NCBI GenBank assembly: GCA_022709695.1
Contig: JAKLII010000005.1
Coordinates: forward strand, 1 to 64,000
Length of the DNA stretch: 64,000 bases
Reading direction: 5' to 3'
DNA from: Bacteroidota bacterium
Lineage (GTDB): Bacteria; Bacteroidota; Bacteroidia; Bacteroidales; SKPS01
The translations under genes were made by a program, and so were the position numbers. Below the pieces are notes generated by a model, which worked only from the letters and a program-made list of their open reading frames with translations, made no database searches and was not told the origin of the DNA. Shown piece by piece: positions 15,713 through 23,107 of this stretch (positions within the stretch are counted from its first letter, which is position 1; every line of letters starts with the position of its first letter).

Positions 15713-16351
15713 TCAGTGCAGCTTTGAGCCGATCAGGTGCATAAACTCGGCACGGGTTTTATCGATGAGGAAAGCGCCTGTAAAATCGGAGGTGGTGGTC
15801 ACGGAATTTTGTTTCTGAATGCCGCGCATGGCCATGCAAAGGTGCACCGCCTCAATCACCACGGCAACACCCAGCGGATGGAGGGCATCCTGGATACACT
15901 GTTTGATCTGGGTGGTGAGGCGTTCCTGCACCTGTAACCTGCGGGCGAAGGCATCCACAACCCGTGGAATCTTGCTGAGCCCAACGATATGTTTGTTGGG
16001 GATATAGGCCACATGTGCCTTCCCGAAGAAAGGGATCATGTGGTGTTCGCACATCGAGTAAATTTCGATGTCCTTCACAATTACCATCTGTTTGTAATCC
16101 TCCTCGAACATGGCCGAACGCAGGATCTCATCGGGATTCAGATCATAACCGTGGGTGAGGAACTGTATGGCTTTGGCTACCCTAACCGGGGTATCCATCA
16201 ACCCTTCGCGGTCAGGGTCTTCACCGATAGTACTCAGGATATTCCTGTATAAAGGTGCCAGGGTGTTAATCTTCTCAGGATTGTAAAGATCGATTTTTTC
16301 ATATCCGTCCATCTCTTCGTATCCGTCCATCAGGTTTTCTTTTTTCATCAT
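15713..16351 (-). CDS. folE: GTP cyclohydrolase I
   Basis: A 212-residue cytoplasmic enzyme converting GTP to 7,8-dihydroneopterin triphosphate, the entry to folate and, with QueD, to queuosine. The zinc ligands are visible in [12 protein letters not shown] (about residue 104) and in HLCMAMRG (about 175). [20 protein letters not shown] near residue 45 is the conserved substrate-binding region. An N-terminal stretch repeating [13 protein letters not shown] precedes the core and is probably dispensable. It lies 75 bp after queD on the same strand, with two palindromic elements between them. Confidence 0.95.
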
Positions 16352-16370
16352 AGGGTTTATTTTTTAATAC

Positions 16371-16432
16371 GGGCAACGCATGCGTTGCCCTTACGATATA
16401 GGATGGGGCAAGGCATGCGTTGCCCTTACGAT
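16371..16432. repeat. Two palindromic GCATGC elements in tandem
   Basis: A perfect 20-bp palindrome (GGGCAACGCATGCGTTGCCC, 16371-16390) is followed 35 bp later by a copy with one changed base (16406-16425). Both continue into TTACGAT; in the second copy those bases are the final Ser codon and TAA stop of queD. A closely related 26-bp palindrome is at 50427-50452. They may act as transcription terminators or REP-type elements. Confidence 0.85.
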
Positions 16433-16851
16433 CCGTAGTATTCGACATAGTTGTTTTCGGTCTCTTCGATGCGTACCCGGTAAAGGGTTGCACCTGTGTT
16501 GTGGATACCGGGGGCCAGCTCGTTCCAGATGGCGATGGCGAGGTTTTCGGTACTGGCCATCTTTCCGGCCATGAAGTCCACCTCCAGATTGATGTTTTTA
16601 TGATCGAGCTTGCTGATCACTTTCTCACGGATATGCTCGCCCAGCCACTTCAGATTGATCAGAAATCCGGTTTCAGGATTCAGGGGTCCGGCCACCGTTA
16701 CATACAGCACATAATTATGCCCGTGCCAGTTCGGGTTCGAGCATTTGCCAAACACCTCCTCGTTTTTCAGGTCTGTATAATCGGGCCTGAAAAGGCGGTG
16801 TGCTGCATTGAACCGTTCCCGGCGGGTGATATGGATGTGAGGTTCCATCAT
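16426..16851 (-). CDS. queD: 6-carboxytetrahydropterin synthase
   Basis: A 141-residue member of the 6-pyruvoyltetrahydropterin synthase family. It acts on dihydroneopterin triphosphate, the FolE product, in the pathway to queuosine. Zinc-binding histidines are visible in RFNAAHRL and NWHGHNY, and the catalytic Cys lies in GKCSNPNWHGH. The conserved E near the C-terminus is in RVRIEETENN. Its position just upstream of folE on the same strand supports the pathway role. The last codons and the stop belong to a palindromic repeat. QueC, QueE and QueF are not in the window. Confidence 0.92.
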   Translation of the reverse strand: MMEPHIHITRRERFNAAHRLFRPDYTDLKNEEVFGKCSNPNWHGHNYVLYVTVAGPLNPETGFLINLKWLGEHIREKVISKLDHKNINLEVDFMAGKMASTENLAIAIWNELAPGIHNTGATLYRVRIEETENNYVEYYGS

Positions 16852-16873: not shown

Positions 16874-17683
16874 TTAGTTCAACAATGTTGGCATTACCGG
16901 CAGATAAACTTTTTGGGTTTGCATATAGGCCCATAGCAGTTGACGTTTTTCTTCCGAAGAAAAACCTTGAATATCAGCCAGAAAAGCCCTGAATGTATCC
17001 ATCAGTTGCTGTCTGACAGGGGTATCGGGGATGATAAAATGCCAGCGTACCGGTGGGGCAAAGGGGTTGGAAATCTCCCAGTAATACTTTCCGGGGGGAA
17101 GGGAATCAGGGCTGATCAGGGAGAGCGTTTTCACCGAATCGGTGAGGGTATCTGTGATGATCGTTTTAAATTTCTGGTTCAGCAAACGGAAGGTTACTGT
17201 CTGATTACCAGGATTTCTGAAAAAGAACAGGATGGTATCGGAAAGGATGGTGGCGCTGTCGCCGGGCAGGCGCGAGGGTTCATCCCCTCTCACCACCCCT
17301 CCCGGTGCATTGGTCCTGGTGTTTTGGTTTTTCATCGCCTCCCATACCATAATAAAGTACCGTACACTTGTGGAGGCCCCGGCTTTTTTGATCATTTGCT
17401 GCACCTGCGCATAGGTGTAGGATCCCTTTTTATCAAGGGTAACCCTTTTCTCGTCGCGGCTGATGATGGTCATGGAGCCGGTGCCAAGGTTGATTACATC
17501 ACCGGGAATCAGTTTTTCTCCGTGAAAATTTCTGATAACCGTTTGATTCCGTTTTAACTGAACATCTCCGGAAGAATTGTAAATCAGCAATTCCGCGCTC
17601 TGGCCCGAAGCAGTAAACCCGAAGCCATACATCAAAATGCAGATGATCAGTAACTGTTGTCTGCGCATGGGGTCACGATTCAT
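16874..17683 (-). CDS. Exported FecR-like protein of unknown function
   Basis: A 269-residue protein with a signal peptide (RRQQLLIICILMYGFGFTASGQ). Residues 30-95 (GDVQLKRNQTVIRNFHGEKLIPGDVINLGTGSMTIISRDEKRVTLDKKGSYTYAQV) resemble a FecR-type beta-rich domain in which a scaffold of the kind 'L-x-x-G-D-x-I-x-T-G' surrounds a regulated surface. The rest contains a beta-sandwich-like stretch (TILFFFRNPGNQTVTFRLLN, then LPPGKYYWEIS). No membrane anchor or catalytic motif is visible. Its first ATG overlaps the end of the CHASE2 gene by 11 bp; a second ATG at 17668 would remove the overlap. It is the last gene of the caspase/CHASE2 operon. Confidence 0.65.
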   Translation of the reverse strand: MNRDPMRRQQLLIICILMYGFGFTASGQSAELLIYNSSGDVQLKRNQTVIRNFHGEKLIPGDVINLGTGSMTIISRDEKRVTLDKKGSYTYAQVQQMIKKAGASTSVRYFIMVWEAMKNQNTRTNAPGGVVRGDEPSRLPGDSATILSDTILFFFRNPGNQTVTFRLLNQKFKTIITDTLTDSVKTLSLISPDSLPPGKYYWEISNPFAPPVRWHFIIPDTPVRQQLMDTFRAFLADIQGFSSEEKRQLLWAYMQTQKVYLPVMPTLLN

Positions 17684-18863
17684 CAGGTTTCACGAAAAGG
17701 CTTCTGTAGGGGATGAATTTTTTCCATCGGTTCATCACAAAGATATACAGATTCAGGACTCCGCCGGTCAGCACCACGCAGGTTAGCAGGTATTTTACGG
17801 TGAATGCGACGGCAAAGTTGCTGAAAAGCATGAAGGATGCCCACAACACCACCACAAAGGCAACGAGTTGGGCGGCAAGGCTGGTGATATCGAACGCCAG
17901 GGGCCATCGGAGGGACAAATGGATCATCAGGCATACAAACAGCATCATCAGGATAAAACTCACCAGGTAAACCAGCCAGTCCGGCACCCTGCTGATCCAC
18001 GCCTGCTGCATGATCATTGAGAGGATATTGGCATGCACAACGATGCCGTACATATCGGGGCGCCGGTTCACTTCCATCCCGAATCCCACAGGGGTGAAAT
18101 ATCTGTCCGACTGATCTTCGGAATTCTGCATCAGGCCACCGCAAAAACCCAGCAGTACGATTTTCCCCTTTACCAGTGGGAGCAGGGCTTCCGGTTCATT
18201 CAGGACGGAGCTGCCCGGCAGGATCCTGAAGGCCTGTTCATCACCGGTATAGTTGATCATTTCAGTCGGGTGGTTCTTTCTGAAGGGTTTGAAGGTGCCA
18301 TCTGCCGGCAGGGAAGCAGCCATCTCAACCGCAAACGAATGGATGGGTTCCGGGGTCGCAGGAATCACGGGCTGGTAGTCACGTACGGTCTGGGTTCCTG
18401 CAGCGTTGGTAAGCAGGCCGGCATGCCCGTACCTGAATTCCGGAAGGTGCCAGTATCGGGGATCAGGTTTTCCTTCCTGATCGAAAGGCAATGACAGCAC
18501 CACCAAATCGCGGTGGCGCAGGAGGGTTTCCTGCAGCAGCGAGTCATACGGGGTATGCAGCGCCTCTGAAAAGAAGATATCAATGCCCAGAACAGCTGGT
18601 GGGGCGGTGGCAATATGGTTGATCAGATCACTCAGCTCCAGGCGGTCGAGGTTTTCGATATTGATGATGACAATGGAGGTATCGGCTTTGTGGTTTGCTA
18701 CGGACGAGAAATAGAGGTCGTTGAGGTTGATGCTTTCGATGGTTTTTGCGATGTAATTCAGTGGTTTGAATGATACGTTGACCAGCAGGTAGAGGAGCCA
18801 GAGTGTCAGGAATATCAGCAGGGTAATCAGAAAGGACTCGAACCAGAGCAGTTTTTTTCGCAT
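17673..18863 (-). CDS. CHASE2 sensor protein without output domain
   Basis: A 396-residue membrane protein. One membrane segment (FLITLLIFLTLWLLYLLVNV, about 12-31) leads to an extracytoplasmic CHASE2 domain (about 35-290; note DTSIVIINIENLDRLELSDL and VLGIDIFFSEALHTPYDSLL, and GKIVLLGFCGG). Three more membrane segments follow (about 292-372), and the protein ends after a 20-residue tail. CHASE2 domains normally feed a kinase, cyclase or phosphodiesterase; here no such domain is attached. The gene is 15 bp after the metacaspase-like gene and overlaps the FecR-like gene, so all three are probably one transcript. A role in sensing an envelope signal is inference. Confidence 0.85.
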   Translation of the reverse strand: MRKKLLWFESFLITLLIFLTLWLLYLLVNVSFKPLNYIAKTIESINLNDLYFSSVANHKADTSIVIINIENLDRLELSDLINHIATAPPAVLGIDIFFSEALHTPYDSLLQETLLRHRDLVVLSLPFDQEGKPDPRYWHLPEFRYGHAGLLTNAAGTQTVRDYQPVIPATPEPIHSFAVEMAASLPADGTFKPFRKNHPTEMINYTGDEQAFRILPGSSVLNEPEALLPLVKGKIVLLGFCGGLMQNSEDQSDRYFTPVGFGMEVNRRPDMYGIVVHANILSMIMQQAWISRVPDWLVYLVSFILMMLFVCLMIHLSLRWPLAFDITSLAAQLVAFVVVLWASFMLFSNFAVAFTVKYLLTCVVLTGGVLNLYIFVMNRWKKFIPYRSLFVKPDES

Positions 18864-18878
18864 GATGGTATGGGGTTA

Positions 18879-20879
18879 TCAGGGGGTTATCTGAAAGAGC
18901 AGGGTTTGGGTGCAGGCACTGGTATTCTCCGTTTCCCGGGCACTGCGTGTGGCGTTATTCTTTCCGGTCATGGTGAAAATCTGCCGGCTCACCGGGTCGT
19001 TTCCGCCATCGCGGAGCAGGGAAGGGGGCCCGGGTTTGAAGGCATCCCGCAGGTCGAGCGTGTAAGGGGTGGCAATGCAGACAAACAATTCATTACCGGC
19101 AGGTGGCTCCACGATCAGAGGCCCTGAGATGTAGCTGTTGCCGGGTTCGAGGTACAGATCGTGCATGGAATGCCGGGGAGCCATCGGTCCGGGTATCAGG
19201 ATGTTGACAAACTGATCCGGCTGGATGTCGAGAAGGTTGAAATATACCGGGAGTTCACCCGTGTTGGTGATTTTTACCCTGAGAGTATCCCCCGGGTAGA
19301 ACAGCGGCAACGAACCATCGGCAGGGGTAGATGCAGGATTTCCTTTGTTGTCGAGGATTTCCAGCACGATTTCGGTACGGTCCGATTTCTCCTCATAGCT
19401 CCGCAGTAGCATGGCTCTGGCATACATCCATAGCCGCTCAGCGACAGTATTCATAAGTGTTTCAGGCTTGATTTTCAGTGCATCAGGTACCGTCAGCAGC
19501 ATGGTGCCGGGTGCCGTCATCAGATACAGCGCACCCGACAGCGAATCGAACCTGGCAATTGCTGCCGATGGGGTTTTCCCGAACCGGATGAATGGATACT
19601 GATCTGGCAGGACGGTAAAAATGGAATCAAGCGCACCGGGAAGATCTTCGGTGAAAAGCCCGGCACCTATTCCATCGTAGCCTTTTCGGGTCACCCTGCA
19701 CAGGGTGTTGAGGAGGGAGTCGGCCGGCAGAACTGCTCCCGAATCGGGTGTGATTACGGACAAAAACAGGGTTGTCGTGACCACCGTTCCTTCCGAAAGG
19801 GTGATACTTGCCTCTGCGTTGGAAAGATCGGGCAACACAAATGCCACACGGGTGCCTGTCGACAGGCCATTCAGGGAGCCCGCCTCTACCAGGATCAGGG
19901 AATCCCCTGTGATTCCGGTGACGGTGTATCCATCTGCGGGTAACGGCACATCGCCCCCAAAGAGTAACGCATCGAGGGATCCTTCGGCCTGTGGTTGCTG
20001 CCAGGGGTGTGCAGAGGCAAATAGATGACGGATCTGTTGGTACACCTGCCGGTAAAGCCTGTCGCCGTCTGTCTGTTCGAGGGCCCGGCAGAATGCCCAG
20101 GTCAGGGAGCCCATCGAAGTCCCGTCGGGCAGTGAATACTCATAGTTGTTCTGTCCGGCTGCAGAGGCAGATATTACGGTGAGGGGTGCTGATTGCGATT
20201 CATTGGGTATCAGCCCCAGCCCCGGATCCTCAGATGATGGGCCGCTTCTCAGATTCGTCGCACCATTAAACGGGGTATCACTGCCTCTGACGATCCCCTG
20301 CCCACGGGTGGCTGTGCCACTGTGACAGGCATCCACCAGCATAAGGACACTGCCGGTGGGTCCGGCTTTATTCTGCAGCATCGACAGCAGCACCTGCAGG
20401 GTATCATCCCGCAGATGCCGCTCCCCTTCATATACTCCCCTGATGTAGTATTTCCCTGCATCCCAGGGGATCAGGGCCTCGTCGTATCCGTCCGCTTCAT
20501 CACCGTTCTGATCTGCAATCTGTTGTCCGTGCCCGCTGAAGTGCACCAGCAGGTGATCTCCGGGGTTAACAGTTGCCGCGAATGCCGAAATAGCATCCAC
20601 AATCCCCCGGAAGGTGGCCCCGCTGTCGGCAAGCAACATGATGTTCTCACGGGCAAACCCCTGTTTGAGGAGGCCTGATGTGATCGCCACCGCATCGGTG
20701 GCCGCATTGATTTTTGTCCAGCCAGAGGTGGAGGCCGGATAATCCCCGATGGCAATGATCAAAGCCCGCCTTACCGGTAAGGGCTGTTCAACCCGAACGG
20801 AATCAAGGTCCTGTGCTGAAATACCACAACCGGTAAACGTGGAGAGCAGTATCAGCATTACCGCAGCGGTATTCCTCAT
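18879..20879 (-). CDS. Exported metacaspase-like protease (peptidase C14 family)
   Basis: A 666-residue protein with a signal peptide containing a possible lipobox (FTGC, Cys18). The caspase domain is at about 38-300. The His-Cys dyad is intact: H117 in VHFSGHGQQ and C185 in LMLVDACHSGT. DGYDEALIPWD (130-140) is the acidic stretch found in metacaspases, which cleave after Arg/Lys and usually need calcium. A middle region (320-480) is of unknown type. The last 160 residues (YPGDTLRVKITNTGELPVYF, then FVNILIPGP) resemble DUF4384-like C-terminal domains that accompany bacterial caspases. It heads an operon with the CHASE2 and FecR-like genes. Substrate and activating signal are unknown. Confidence 0.85.
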   Translation of the reverse strand: MRNTAAVMLILLSTFTGCGISAQDLDSVRVEQPLPVRRALIIAIGDYPASTSGWTKINAATDAVAITSGLLKQGFARENIMLLADSGATFRGIVDAISAFAATVNPGDHLLVHFSGHGQQIADQNGDEADGYDEALIPWDAGKYYIRGVYEGERHLRDDTLQVLLSMLQNKAGPTGSVLMLVDACHSGTATRGQGIVRGSDTPFNGATNLRSGPSSEDPGLGLIPNESQSAPLTVISASAAGQNNYEYSLPDGTSMGSLTWAFCRALEQTDGDRLYRQVYQQIRHLFASAHPWQQPQAEGSLDALLFGGDVPLPADGYTVTGITGDSLILVEAGSLNGLSTGTRVAFVLPDLSNAEASITLSEGTVVTTTLFLSVITPDSGAVLPADSLLNTLCRVTRKGYDGIGAGLFTEDLPGALDSIFTVLPDQYPFIRFGKTPSAAIARFDSLSGALYLMTAPGTMLLTVPDALKIKPETLMNTVAERLWMYARAMLLRSYEEKSDRTEIVLEILDNKGNPASTPADGSLPLFYPGDTLRVKITNTGELPVYFNLLDIQPDQFVNILIPGPMAPRHSMHDLYLEPGNSYISGPLIVEPPAGNELFVCIATPYTLDLRDAFKPGPPSLLRDGGNDPVSRQIFTMTGKNNATRSARETENTSACTQTLLFQITP

Positions 20880-20912
20880 GGCAGCAGGCAGGTATCAGGG
20901 TGCAGAAGCAAT

Positions 20913-20920
20913 CAAAATTA
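20913..20920 (-). promoter_or_regulatory. Promoter -7 box for the metacaspase-like operon
   Basis: TAATTTTG on the minus strand fits TAnnTTTG and lies 33 bp before the ATG at 20879. Confidence 0.45.
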
Positions 20921-20973
20921 GTATTTTCTGTGTACAATGACTCTCCGGAAACAGATTATTGCGATTTTCTCTG

Positions 20974-20981
20974 TAATTTTG
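20974..20981 (+). promoter_or_regulatory. Promoter -7 box for the caspase-FGE gene
   Basis: TAATTTTG fits TAnnTTTG and lies 23 bp before the ATG at 21005. The two divergent -7 boxes in this 125-bp gap have the same 8-base sequence. Confidence 0.45.
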
Positions 20982-21004
20982 AATCGGAAAGAAGAGCGAT
21001 CACC

Positions 21005-23107
21005 ATGAAAATCCGGAATCTGAATAATCTGTGGGTAATTGCCGGCATGATGATCATGCTGGCAGGCAGCGTGTATGCTCAGGACCGTGGACTCAGGCCG
21101 GTTACCGTGAAAATTGAGGGGCAGCCCACCACCCTGTACAAACAGAGCCACGCCTTGATCATCGGAGTGTATGATTATACGGGAGGCTGGAGGCCACTCC
21201 CCGGTGTGAAGGCCGACATCGCGGAGGTAAAGAAATCCCTGGAGCAGACCGGCTTTAACGTAGTGGTATCGGAGAATGGCACCAAGGAGCAGATCAATAA
21301 GGCGATTACGGATTTCATCTACAAATACGGGCAGAATGTTGATAACCGGCTGCTGATTTATTATGCAGGGCATGGACACACAGTCAGAACTGCCTATGAC
21401 GATAACCTCGGGTACATTGTTCCGGTAAATGCCCCTGACCCTACCACAGATCTGGCAGGGTTCCAGGCGATGTCCATCGAAATGAAGGCCATTGAGATTT
21501 TTGCTTACAGCATCCAGTCGAAGCATGCCCTGTTTCTCTTTGATGCCTGTTTTGCAGGCTCGCTGTTTGATATGCGAAGTGCTGTAAGTGAAGCCATTAC
21601 ACAAAAGACCACCCGTTTTGTGCGGCAATTCATCACCAGTGGCAGTGCAGATGAAAAAGTACCGGACGAGAGCATCTTCAGGCGTGAATTTGTAACGGCC
21701 ATTACCACCGACGAAGCGGATTACGATAAGGATGGGTTTCTTACCGGCAGCGAACTCGGATTTTACCTGCAGAGCAAGGTGGAGAGTTACAGTGGCAACA
21801 CCCAGCATCCGCAGTTCGGGAAAATCAGAAATCCAAAGCTCGACAAGGGGGATTTTGTGTTCAGGATCCCGGAAAAGGGAGAAACCGTCCCTGAGGCTCC
21901 GGCAGTATCCACCGGTACTGAGCCTGCCCTGGCACAGAAACCTGCGGCAGAACCTCAGGATAAAGCGCAGCCCTCTTCGCGGGAGGCTCCGGTAACAGCT
22001 CCCAAACCGGTGGCAGAGCAGAAGGCTGCCGAACCCCGTGAGGATTATGAGGAATTTAAGTACCGCAAGCCCGCCGAAGGACAGAACCCGCAGGAGGCAG
22101 CCGGTGCAGCCTCCAAAGGGCACATCGAAATCAGTGCACAGATTGCAGGGGATGTATGGATTGACGGGGTATTTCGCCAGCGTACCCTGGCAGGGGGTAT
22201 CGTGGTGGTCAGGAACCTTGTGCCCGGCCCTCACTGGGTGGAGCTCAGGGGTAACGATTCCTGGTCAGATACCGTGATGGTGGAAAACGGGCAAATTGTG
22301 TATGTAACCGCCGAAAAGCAGAAGCTCTTCAGAATCGGTGATTTCAGTGTTCCATTTGGTGGCACTGAGATCAAAATGTGCGGCATCCCGGGAGGTACCT
22401 TTATGTTTGGCAAGGGGGATGAAAACCCCGGAAGCTCCATGACAGTGGAAAATTTTTCCATCATGAAGTATGAGGTTTCCGTGGTGGAGTTTAAAAAGTT
22501 TATTGAGGATACAGGATACAGGACGGATGCGGAGCGGCACACCGGGGATTTCGGCAGCGTGATCCTCAAGGGCACCTCACAGGAAAACAAGGACGGCGTC
22601 AACTGGAAATGCAGCTCCGATGGTTTTTTACGCCCCCAGCTTTCGTATAATCACCCGGTCATCCATGTGAGCTGGAACGATGCGGTTGCCTATGCTGCCT
22701 GGCTGTCGGAGAAAACAGGCATGAACTGGAGGCTTCCCGATGAAGCGGAATGGGAATATGCGGCCCGTGGTGGTGAGGATTGGCGCTATGCCGGCAGCGA
22801 CTCTGCGGATGCAGTGGCATGGCACTGGAAGAACTCCAACAGGTCAACACAGACACCCGGGCTGAAGAAAGGCAACGGATTTGGCATTTACGATATGTCG
22901 GGTAATGTAAGGGAATGGTGTATGGATCAAGTAAATACAGGTGAAGCAGAACCTCTGTCCGGACAGCCCTTCTCGATACGGCGCCCAGCCAGGGGTGGCA
23001 GCAGCGATATGATGCCGAACTTCTGTGAGGTAACTTCCCGCAGTTTGTTTCCGCAGGAATACCGTAATCACAGTACCGGTTTCAGGCTTGTTCTGGAGCC
23101 TAAATGA
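21005..23107 (+). CDS. Exported caspase-PEGA-FGE (sulfatase-modifying factor-like) fusion
   Basis: A 700-residue exported protein with signal peptide (LWVIAGMMIMLAGSVYAQ). The caspase domain is at about 45-290 with H123 in YYAGHGH and C182 in LFLFDACFAGS. A Pro/Ala/Glu-rich linker (about 300-365) leads to a PEGA-like domain (370-440: GDVWIDGVFRQRTLAGGIVV, then LVPGPHWVELRG). The C-terminal 245 residues are an FGE/SUMF1 domain (GGTFMFGKGDENPG, MNWRLPDEAEWEYAARGGED, GIYDMSGNVREWCMD, TGFRLVLE). FGE folds in such fusions are often binding and not enzymatic. I take the start at 21005 because a TAATTTTG box is at 20974 and the signal peptide begins there. It is divergent from a second caspase gene and overlaps galE by ATGA. 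Confidence 0.87.
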   Translation: MKIRNLNNLWVIAGMMIMLAGSVYAQDRGLRPVTVKIEGQPTTLYKQSHALIIGVYDYTGGWRPLPGVKADIAEVKKSLEQTGFNVVVSENGTKEQINKAITDFIYKYGQNVDNRLLIYYAGHGHTVRTAYDDNLGYIVPVNAPDPTTDLAGFQAMSIEMKAIEIFAYSIQSKHALFLFDACFAGSLFDMRSAVSEAITQKTTRFVRQFITSGSADEKVPDESIFRREFVTAITTDEADYDKDGFLTGSELGFYLQSKVESYSGNTQHPQFGKIRNPKLDKGDFVFRIPEKGETVPEAPAVSTGTEPALAQKPAAEPQDKAQPSSREAPVTAPKPVAEQKAAEPREDYEEFKYRKPAEGQNPQEAAGAASKGHIEISAQIAGDVWIDGVFRQRTLAGGIVVVRNLVPGPHWVELRGNDSWSDTVMVENGQIVYVTAEKQKLFRIGDFSVPFGGTEIKMCGIPGGTFMFGKGDENPGSSMTVENFSIMKYEVSVVEFKKFIEDTGYRTDAERHTGDFGSVILKGTSQENKDGVNWKCSSDGFLRPQLSYNHPVIHVSWNDAVAYAAWLSEKTGMNWRLPDEAEWEYAARGGEDWRYAGSDSADAVAWHWKNSNRSTQTPGLKKGNGFGIYDMSGNVREWCMDQVNTGEAEPLSGQPFSIRRPARGGSSDMMPNFCEVTSRSLFPQEYRNHSTGFRLVLEPK

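Follow-up and report, generated by a model that had tools for sequence, protein, structure and literature searches.

CHASE2 usually heads transmembrane receptors, and the locus described here raises the question of what such a sensor acts on when it carries no output domain and is encoded beside two exported caspase-like proteases. It lies in a stretch of 64,000 nucleotides from a Bacteroidota bacterium (hereafter, the window) and consists of the following features.

16874..17683, minus strand: exported CHASE2-partner protein, 269 aa (ORF, AlphaFold2 model, fold matches, family profile)
17673..18863, minus strand: CHASE2 protein, 396 aa (Pfam CHASE2, hydropathy)
18879..20879, minus strand: exported metacaspase-like C14 protease, 666 aa, His117/Cys185 (Pfam C14, dyad)
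20880..21004, no strand: divergent gap, 125 bp, with one outward TAATTTTG per side (pattern scan)
20913..20920, minus strand: putative -7 element TAATTTTG for the caspase-CHASE2-partner genes (consensus match only)
20974..20981, plus strand: putative -7 element TAATTTTG for the caspase-FGE gene (consensus match only)
21005..23107, plus strand: exported caspase fused to an FGE/SUMF1-like domain, 700 aa, His123/Cys182 (Pfam C14 and FGE-sulfatase)

The four genes reported in the first-pass annotation are all present, with the minus-strand genes, transcribed in the order 666-aa C14 protease, 396-aa CHASE2 protein and 269-aa exported protein, overlapping by 11 nt or lying 15 nt apart, and with a divergent gap of 125 bp. 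Both caspases and the small partner protein have signal-peptide-like N-termini, in agreement with the exported location proposed for them. The Bacteroidota -7-type promoter word is TAnnTTTG, which TAATTTTG fits, and the divergent gap contains two occurrences against about 0.08 expected from the 42 that a pattern scan counted over 64 kb. On the minus strand, the sequence TATCTTTG at 17738-17745, within the end of the CHASE2 gene and about 55 nt ahead of the partner start, is a possible internal promoter. The third (partner) gene is followed after 22 bp, on the minus strand, by a 6-pyruvoyl-tetrahydropterin-synthase-type gene and a GTP cyclohydrolase I gene (15713-16851); between these two lies a 27-nt direct repeat, also forming a near-perfect 23-nt inverted repeat (GGGCAACGCATGCGTTGCCC; 16368-16432).

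The 396-aa protein matches Pfam CHASE2 with an E value of 4.5e-21 (76 bits against a cut-off of 26.3) and is the only CHASE2 match in the genome of the window (3.39 Mb). Neither a second Pfam or NCBIfam family nor a kinase, cyclase or other output domain was detected in it, bearing out its earlier description as an orphan sensor, and its C-terminal tail is short (about 20-25 residues). The same genome contains only two C14 matches, namely the two caspases of the locus, which score 69.5 and 64.7 bits (Pfam Peptidase_C14, cut-off 21.4; E 4.3e-19 for the 666-aa protease and 1.3e-17 for the 700-aa protein) and both retain the His-Cys dyad that had been noted, at His117/Cys185 (HFSGHG, DACHSG) and His123/Cys182 (YYAGHG, DACFAG), respectively. 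The 666-aa protease resembles the metacaspase-1 and GSU0716 structures by sequence match, and a DUF4384-like region near residues 530-610, lying under the Pfam cut-off (19 versus 27 bits), is also marked by an iterated profile in its orthologues. Its closest relatives elsewhere (about 18 loci) do not adjoin CHASE2, which counts against a functional module. Both caspases fall far under the cut-off of NF047832, the EACC1-associated caspase (31.3 and 52.9 versus 140 bits; NCBIfam), and in PADLOC the generic caspase model alone was matched, with no partner model of a defence system.

The fusion of the second caspase to an FGE/SUMF1 domain holds, the FGE-sulfatase match having an E value of 7.3e-47 (160.6 bits against a Pfam cut-off of 23.3), and the PEGA domain formerly placed between caspase and FGE is unconfirmed, the isolated region having failed to match Pfam at a threshold as loose as E 10. 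No orthologue with the full caspase-FGE architecture was found among 247 genomes of the same class as the window. In the caspase tree, the caspase domain of this protein falls into a seven-row clade (support 100, 51-61% identity) together with L161_2, which is also a caspase-FGE protein, L161_4, two partner-caspase fusions described below and two further proteins from CHASE2-bearing genomes for which linkage to CHASE2 was not seen; five rows thus lie at CHASE2 loci, and because the background rows of this tree come mostly from CHASE2 genomes, the clade is no measure of exclusivity. Judged from the tree, the caspase of the divergent caspase-FGE gene is of the subfamily that is also used in the partner-caspase fusions.

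The 269-aa partner was modelled by AlphaFold2 with a mean pLDDT of 86.5, and the model predicts a signal peptide, an N-terminal beta domain (about 32-90), helices, an Ig-like beta sandwich (about 135-220) and a C-terminal helical hairpin; longer relatives, in a family of about 270-350 aa that is without a Pfam entry, have TPR-like helices at the C-terminal end. Residues 28-104 gave their best structural match, with Z 8.8 across 74 residues, to 5ix9 ('cell surface anchoring domain'), a resemblance that may reflect a common arrangement, and no FecR structure was among the structural matches listed for this domain; Foldseek returned Ig/FN3-type matches alone, with low TM-score. The label 'FecR-like' given to this protein is not upheld, as none of 80 family members matches Pfam FecR at E 0.05 and none of the isolated N-domains does so at E 10. 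A FecR anti-sigma protein was also considered and rejected in view of the N-terminal signal peptide, the lack of a cytoplasmic domain and the lack of a Pfam FecR match. Any likeness of the beta domain to FecR would be one of fold at most. The window partner itself has no Pfam match. Two of the 80 partner proteins match DUF928 weakly and, because DUF928 genes adjoin CHASE2 in Nostoc, the family may extend to cyanobacteria.

A single-sequence search of genome contigs with the window CHASE2 gave no match, and an alignment-based query found 411 relatives; a phylum-wide search mostly yielded frames of about 730 aa, probably CHASE2-cyclase proteins of other classes, which were excluded. The neighbourhoods gathered were those of orphan CHASE2 genes whose detection did not depend on caspases, except that two loci (L128, L129) had first been obtained via a caspase search. 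Mechanical gene calling and scoring with iterated profiles gave 111 non-redundant loci. In 84 of these, the partner is the next same-strand gene downstream or is fused, and in 93 it lies within 2.5 kb, some of the loci without it being cut by contig ends; the gap between the two genes has a median of 3 bp and is at most 50 bp in 80 of 96 cases. CHASE2 and its partner are thus the conserved core. The order caspase, CHASE2, partner recurs with the same type of caspase in L163, L167 (Labilibacter marinus) and L188, in L202 with one small ORF separating caspase from CHASE2, and in L175 with a different caspase type.

The loci vary in several other respects. Nine loci of Cyclobacteriaceae type (L098, L103, L165, L197, L204, L205, L207, L208, L216) have one CHASE2 gene followed by two tandem partner genes at a syntenic site, often with a meaB-like gene nearby on the opposite strand, and have no linked protease. 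CHASE2 genes occur in tandem in L195, L107 and L117, the first of which has four consecutive partner genes. In L113, L114 and L119, apparently of Ignavibacteria type, NfeD-like and SPFH/stomatin-like genes (named by eye) come after the pair, whose partner was called in L114 only.

An exported cysteine protease was found within 8 kb in 35 of the 111 loci, of C14 type in 29, papain-like C1 in 8 and CHAT in 5, one ORF (L175_10) being counted both as C14 and as CHAT; in 29 loci a same-strand protease lies no more than 3 kb away, and in nine a caspase is the immediate same-strand upstream neighbour. The first-pass annotation had named a lack of co-occurrence between CHASE2 and the caspase gene in relatives as an outcome contrary to its proposal, and co-occurrence was found: 14 caspase-linked loci were seen in 40 genomes against 0.65 expected (Poisson P 1e-14, a value that ignores shared ancestry and takes its expectation from about 175 C14 domains spread over some 176 Mb, with genome sizes rounded). 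In the CHASE2 tree, caspase linkage takes 11 changes, at least seven of them forced by well-supported branches, and in the caspase tree, the linked caspases are spread over several subfamilies with at least 11 forced label changes, which indicates repeated recruitment or loss of linkage.

Several results count against a module. No protease was detected within 8 kb in 76 of the 111 loci or beside any CHASE2 gene of a mainly Cytophagales clade of 31 rows, and five of the 40 genomes with the pair have no C14 match. Co-occurrence at the genome level is likewise modest: in an even sample of the class of the window, 20 of the 34 genomes with CHASE2 have caspases, as do 94 of the 262 others (Fisher P 0.014, kinship ignored; one genome was scored by hand, since the fast search had missed a caspase that is seen in L099). 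The association of caspase and CHASE2 is therefore real but loose, linkage being a recurrent minority and many pairs standing alone. As to the other proteases, exported papain-like C1 proteases lie on the same strand by or near the pair in L106, L111, L104, L170, L171, L176, L177 and L194, and those of L104 and L106, the two checked in Pfam, carry a C-terminal DUF4384, the domain that the iterated profile marks at the end of the window caspase too. TPR-CHAT proteins lie near the pair in L253 (10000-13341) and in L246, L254, L200 and L209; in the last four loci the partner and CHASE2 genes are divergent and not in series.

The strongest hint of a mechanism comes from gene fusions. In L122 and L225, the ORF directly after CHASE2 combines the partner N-domain, a C14 caspase with intact motifs and an outer-membrane beta-barrel-like domain, the barrel match being above cut-off in L122 only, and no separate partner gene was found in either locus. 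Since the fusion ORF takes the place of the partner, the protease has replaced the Ig/TPR half, and the partner N-domain is likely, from this arrangement of domains, the part that faces CHASE2. The two fusions probably represent one event, because the CHASE2 rows of both loci share one four-row clade. In L132, CHASE2 and partner form a single 750-aa reading frame, for which an AlphaFold2 model, with an alignment built from in-frame read-through rows, predicts membrane-length helices at 7-25, 304-328, 333-359, 366-401 and 410-428; with five helices and the CHASE2 domain outside, the partner would be outside too, given the inferred orientation. The pTM of this model, 0.60, was counted against the module, and so was the fact that no interface was predicted.

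Comparison with a genome of the same genus (G001) bears on the unity of the locus. The genes flanking it are collinear with those of the window, all four genes are absent as one block, and the tetrahydropterin gene is directly followed by a galE-like gene. The comparison covers a single event, which may be a gain in the window or a loss in G001, and this was counted against the module. The tetrahydropterin and GTP cyclohydrolase I genes are present in G001 too and are therefore older neighbours, outside the block. As judged from this comparison, the divergent caspase-FGE gene is part of the block. A foreign origin of the block finds no support, its composition being native (GC 0.531 versus 0.511 for the window), and no obvious flanking repeats were found. 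Because of the conservation data and the empty site, the grouping of the four genes goes beyond chance.

Taking these results together, we give a probability of about one half to the reading that the four-gene block is an envelope sensor-adaptor-protease module working on the periplasmic side. In the mechanism that we envisage, CHASE2 would be an inner-membrane protein whose sensory domain faces the periplasm, where a ligand would activate it, and which has only short cytoplasmic tails; the exported small protein would be its dedicated partner and relay the signal, probably touching CHASE2 through its N-terminal beta domain and the effector through its Ig/TPR-like half. The exported metacaspase-like protease would be the effector that cuts its substrates, so that signal and response would both lie outside the inner membrane, and the divergent caspase-FGE protein may be a second effector or a substrate-handling partner of the same block. 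The first-pass annotation had proposed an envelope-signal module in which a CHASE2/FecR pair senses and the two proteases respond. The proposal is supported in part: the conserved pair, the above-chance linkage to exported C14 proteases, the fusions and the presence or absence of the block as a unit speak for it, whereas the minority of caspase linkage (29/111) and the occurrence of the pair with C1, with CHAT or alone speak against it, and by the tests applied the partner is not a FecR anti-sigma protein.

The main rival is that the pair is a general, stand-alone envelope sensor or scaffold of non-proteolytic function, located at a site favoured for envelope-gene cargo, the proteases being mere neighbours. 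That most pairs are without a linked protease, that the mainly Cytophagales clade has the pair alone, in many loci beside a meaB-like gene, and that the neighbouring proteases come from unrelated clans (C14 and CHAT versus papain C1) would all be expected of such a scaffold, whereas the partner-caspase fusions straight after CHASE2 at two loci, the nine caspases immediately upstream on the same strand and the linkage P of 1e-14 would not; we regard this explanation as rather unlikely. The order of events might instead be reversed, with the exported caspases cleaving the partner or CHASE2 and the signal then passing to a cytoplasmic or membrane output. Inward signalling would be normal for CHASE2 receptors and the caspase gene is the first of the minus-strand group, but the CHASE2 tail is short and has no output domain, and the fusion sets the caspase in the position of the partner, which makes this direction improbable. 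An accidental assembly of four unrelated genes, with a separate function of the caspase-FGE protein, would accord with the lack of a full-length orthologue of the latter in the 247 genomes of the class, yet it appears very improbable against the conservation of the pair, the recurring trio, the fusions, the presence of the block in the window and its absence from G001, and the five rows of the seven-row caspase clade that lie at CHASE2 loci.

The sensor-adaptor-protease module is worth comparing with known systems. In LapD-LapG, an inner-membrane sensor governs a periplasmic cysteine protease, LapG not being a caspase; the likeness to the proposed module is one of layout, a sensor set over a periplasmic protease, together with the match of the partner N-domain to 5ix9, and is an analogy only. 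Any resemblance of the partner to the transmembrane anti-sigma regulators of the FecR type would be confined to its N-terminal beta domain; the partner is exported and soluble, with no Pfam match or cytoplasmic anti-sigma part, and is encoded next to CHASE2 instead of an ECF sigma factor. A caspase and CHASE2 occur on one polypeptide in Trichodesmium erythraeum IMS101, the caspase being predicted to be cytoplasmic (PMC2853523, PMC3501461); a C14 domain is likewise coupled to a CHASE2 sensor in the window, where, however, CHASE2 is separate, the caspases have signal-peptide-like N-termini and CHASE2 has a third protein, exported as well, for its constant partner. In Nostoc punctiforme, a CHASE2 gene lies beside a DUF928 gene and WD40 proteins (PMC5587647), a cluster for which an exported caspase is not reported and which may be linked to the present family, as the two weak DUF928 matches among 80 partners hint. 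Proteins combining C14 caspase and FGE-sulfatase domains are known in bacteria including Haliscomenobacter (PMC3501461), but the window gene differs in standing divergently beside a caspase-CHASE2-partner group. A survey of conflict systems describes CHASE2 as a variable domain and caspases also in networks of the TRADD-N/EACC1 type (PMC8195603), from which the window caspases differ in their predicted export and in scoring far under the EACC1-associated caspase cut-off. In the literature searched, which lies mostly outside subscription journals, neither a split, exported caspase-CHASE2 arrangement nor the partner family is described, and no paper joins CHASE2 with caspase and FecR, or CHASE2 with CHAT.

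A broader reading, which we put forward tentatively and hold to be doubtful rather than probable, is that the locus represents a receptor class of wide distribution: an output-less CHASE2 of the inner membrane would act through a dedicated exported adaptor on interchangeable proteases of the same side (caspase, CHAT or papain-like), in some lineages through a chain reaching an outer-membrane barrel, so that the architecture of a transmembrane receptor would serve outside-to-outside signalling. Caspases of bacteria are mostly treated as enzymes of death or defence that act in the cytoplasm, and the present data suggest a recurring control of envelope, not intracellular, proteolysis in Bacteroidota and relatives. 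If true, caspases would gain a role in the envelope together with an upstream regulator amenable to genetic tests, the orphan CHASE2 proteins, sensors without a visible output, would gain a function, and a name would be given to the partner family, which has no Pfam entry though it accompanies most orphan CHASE2 proteins.
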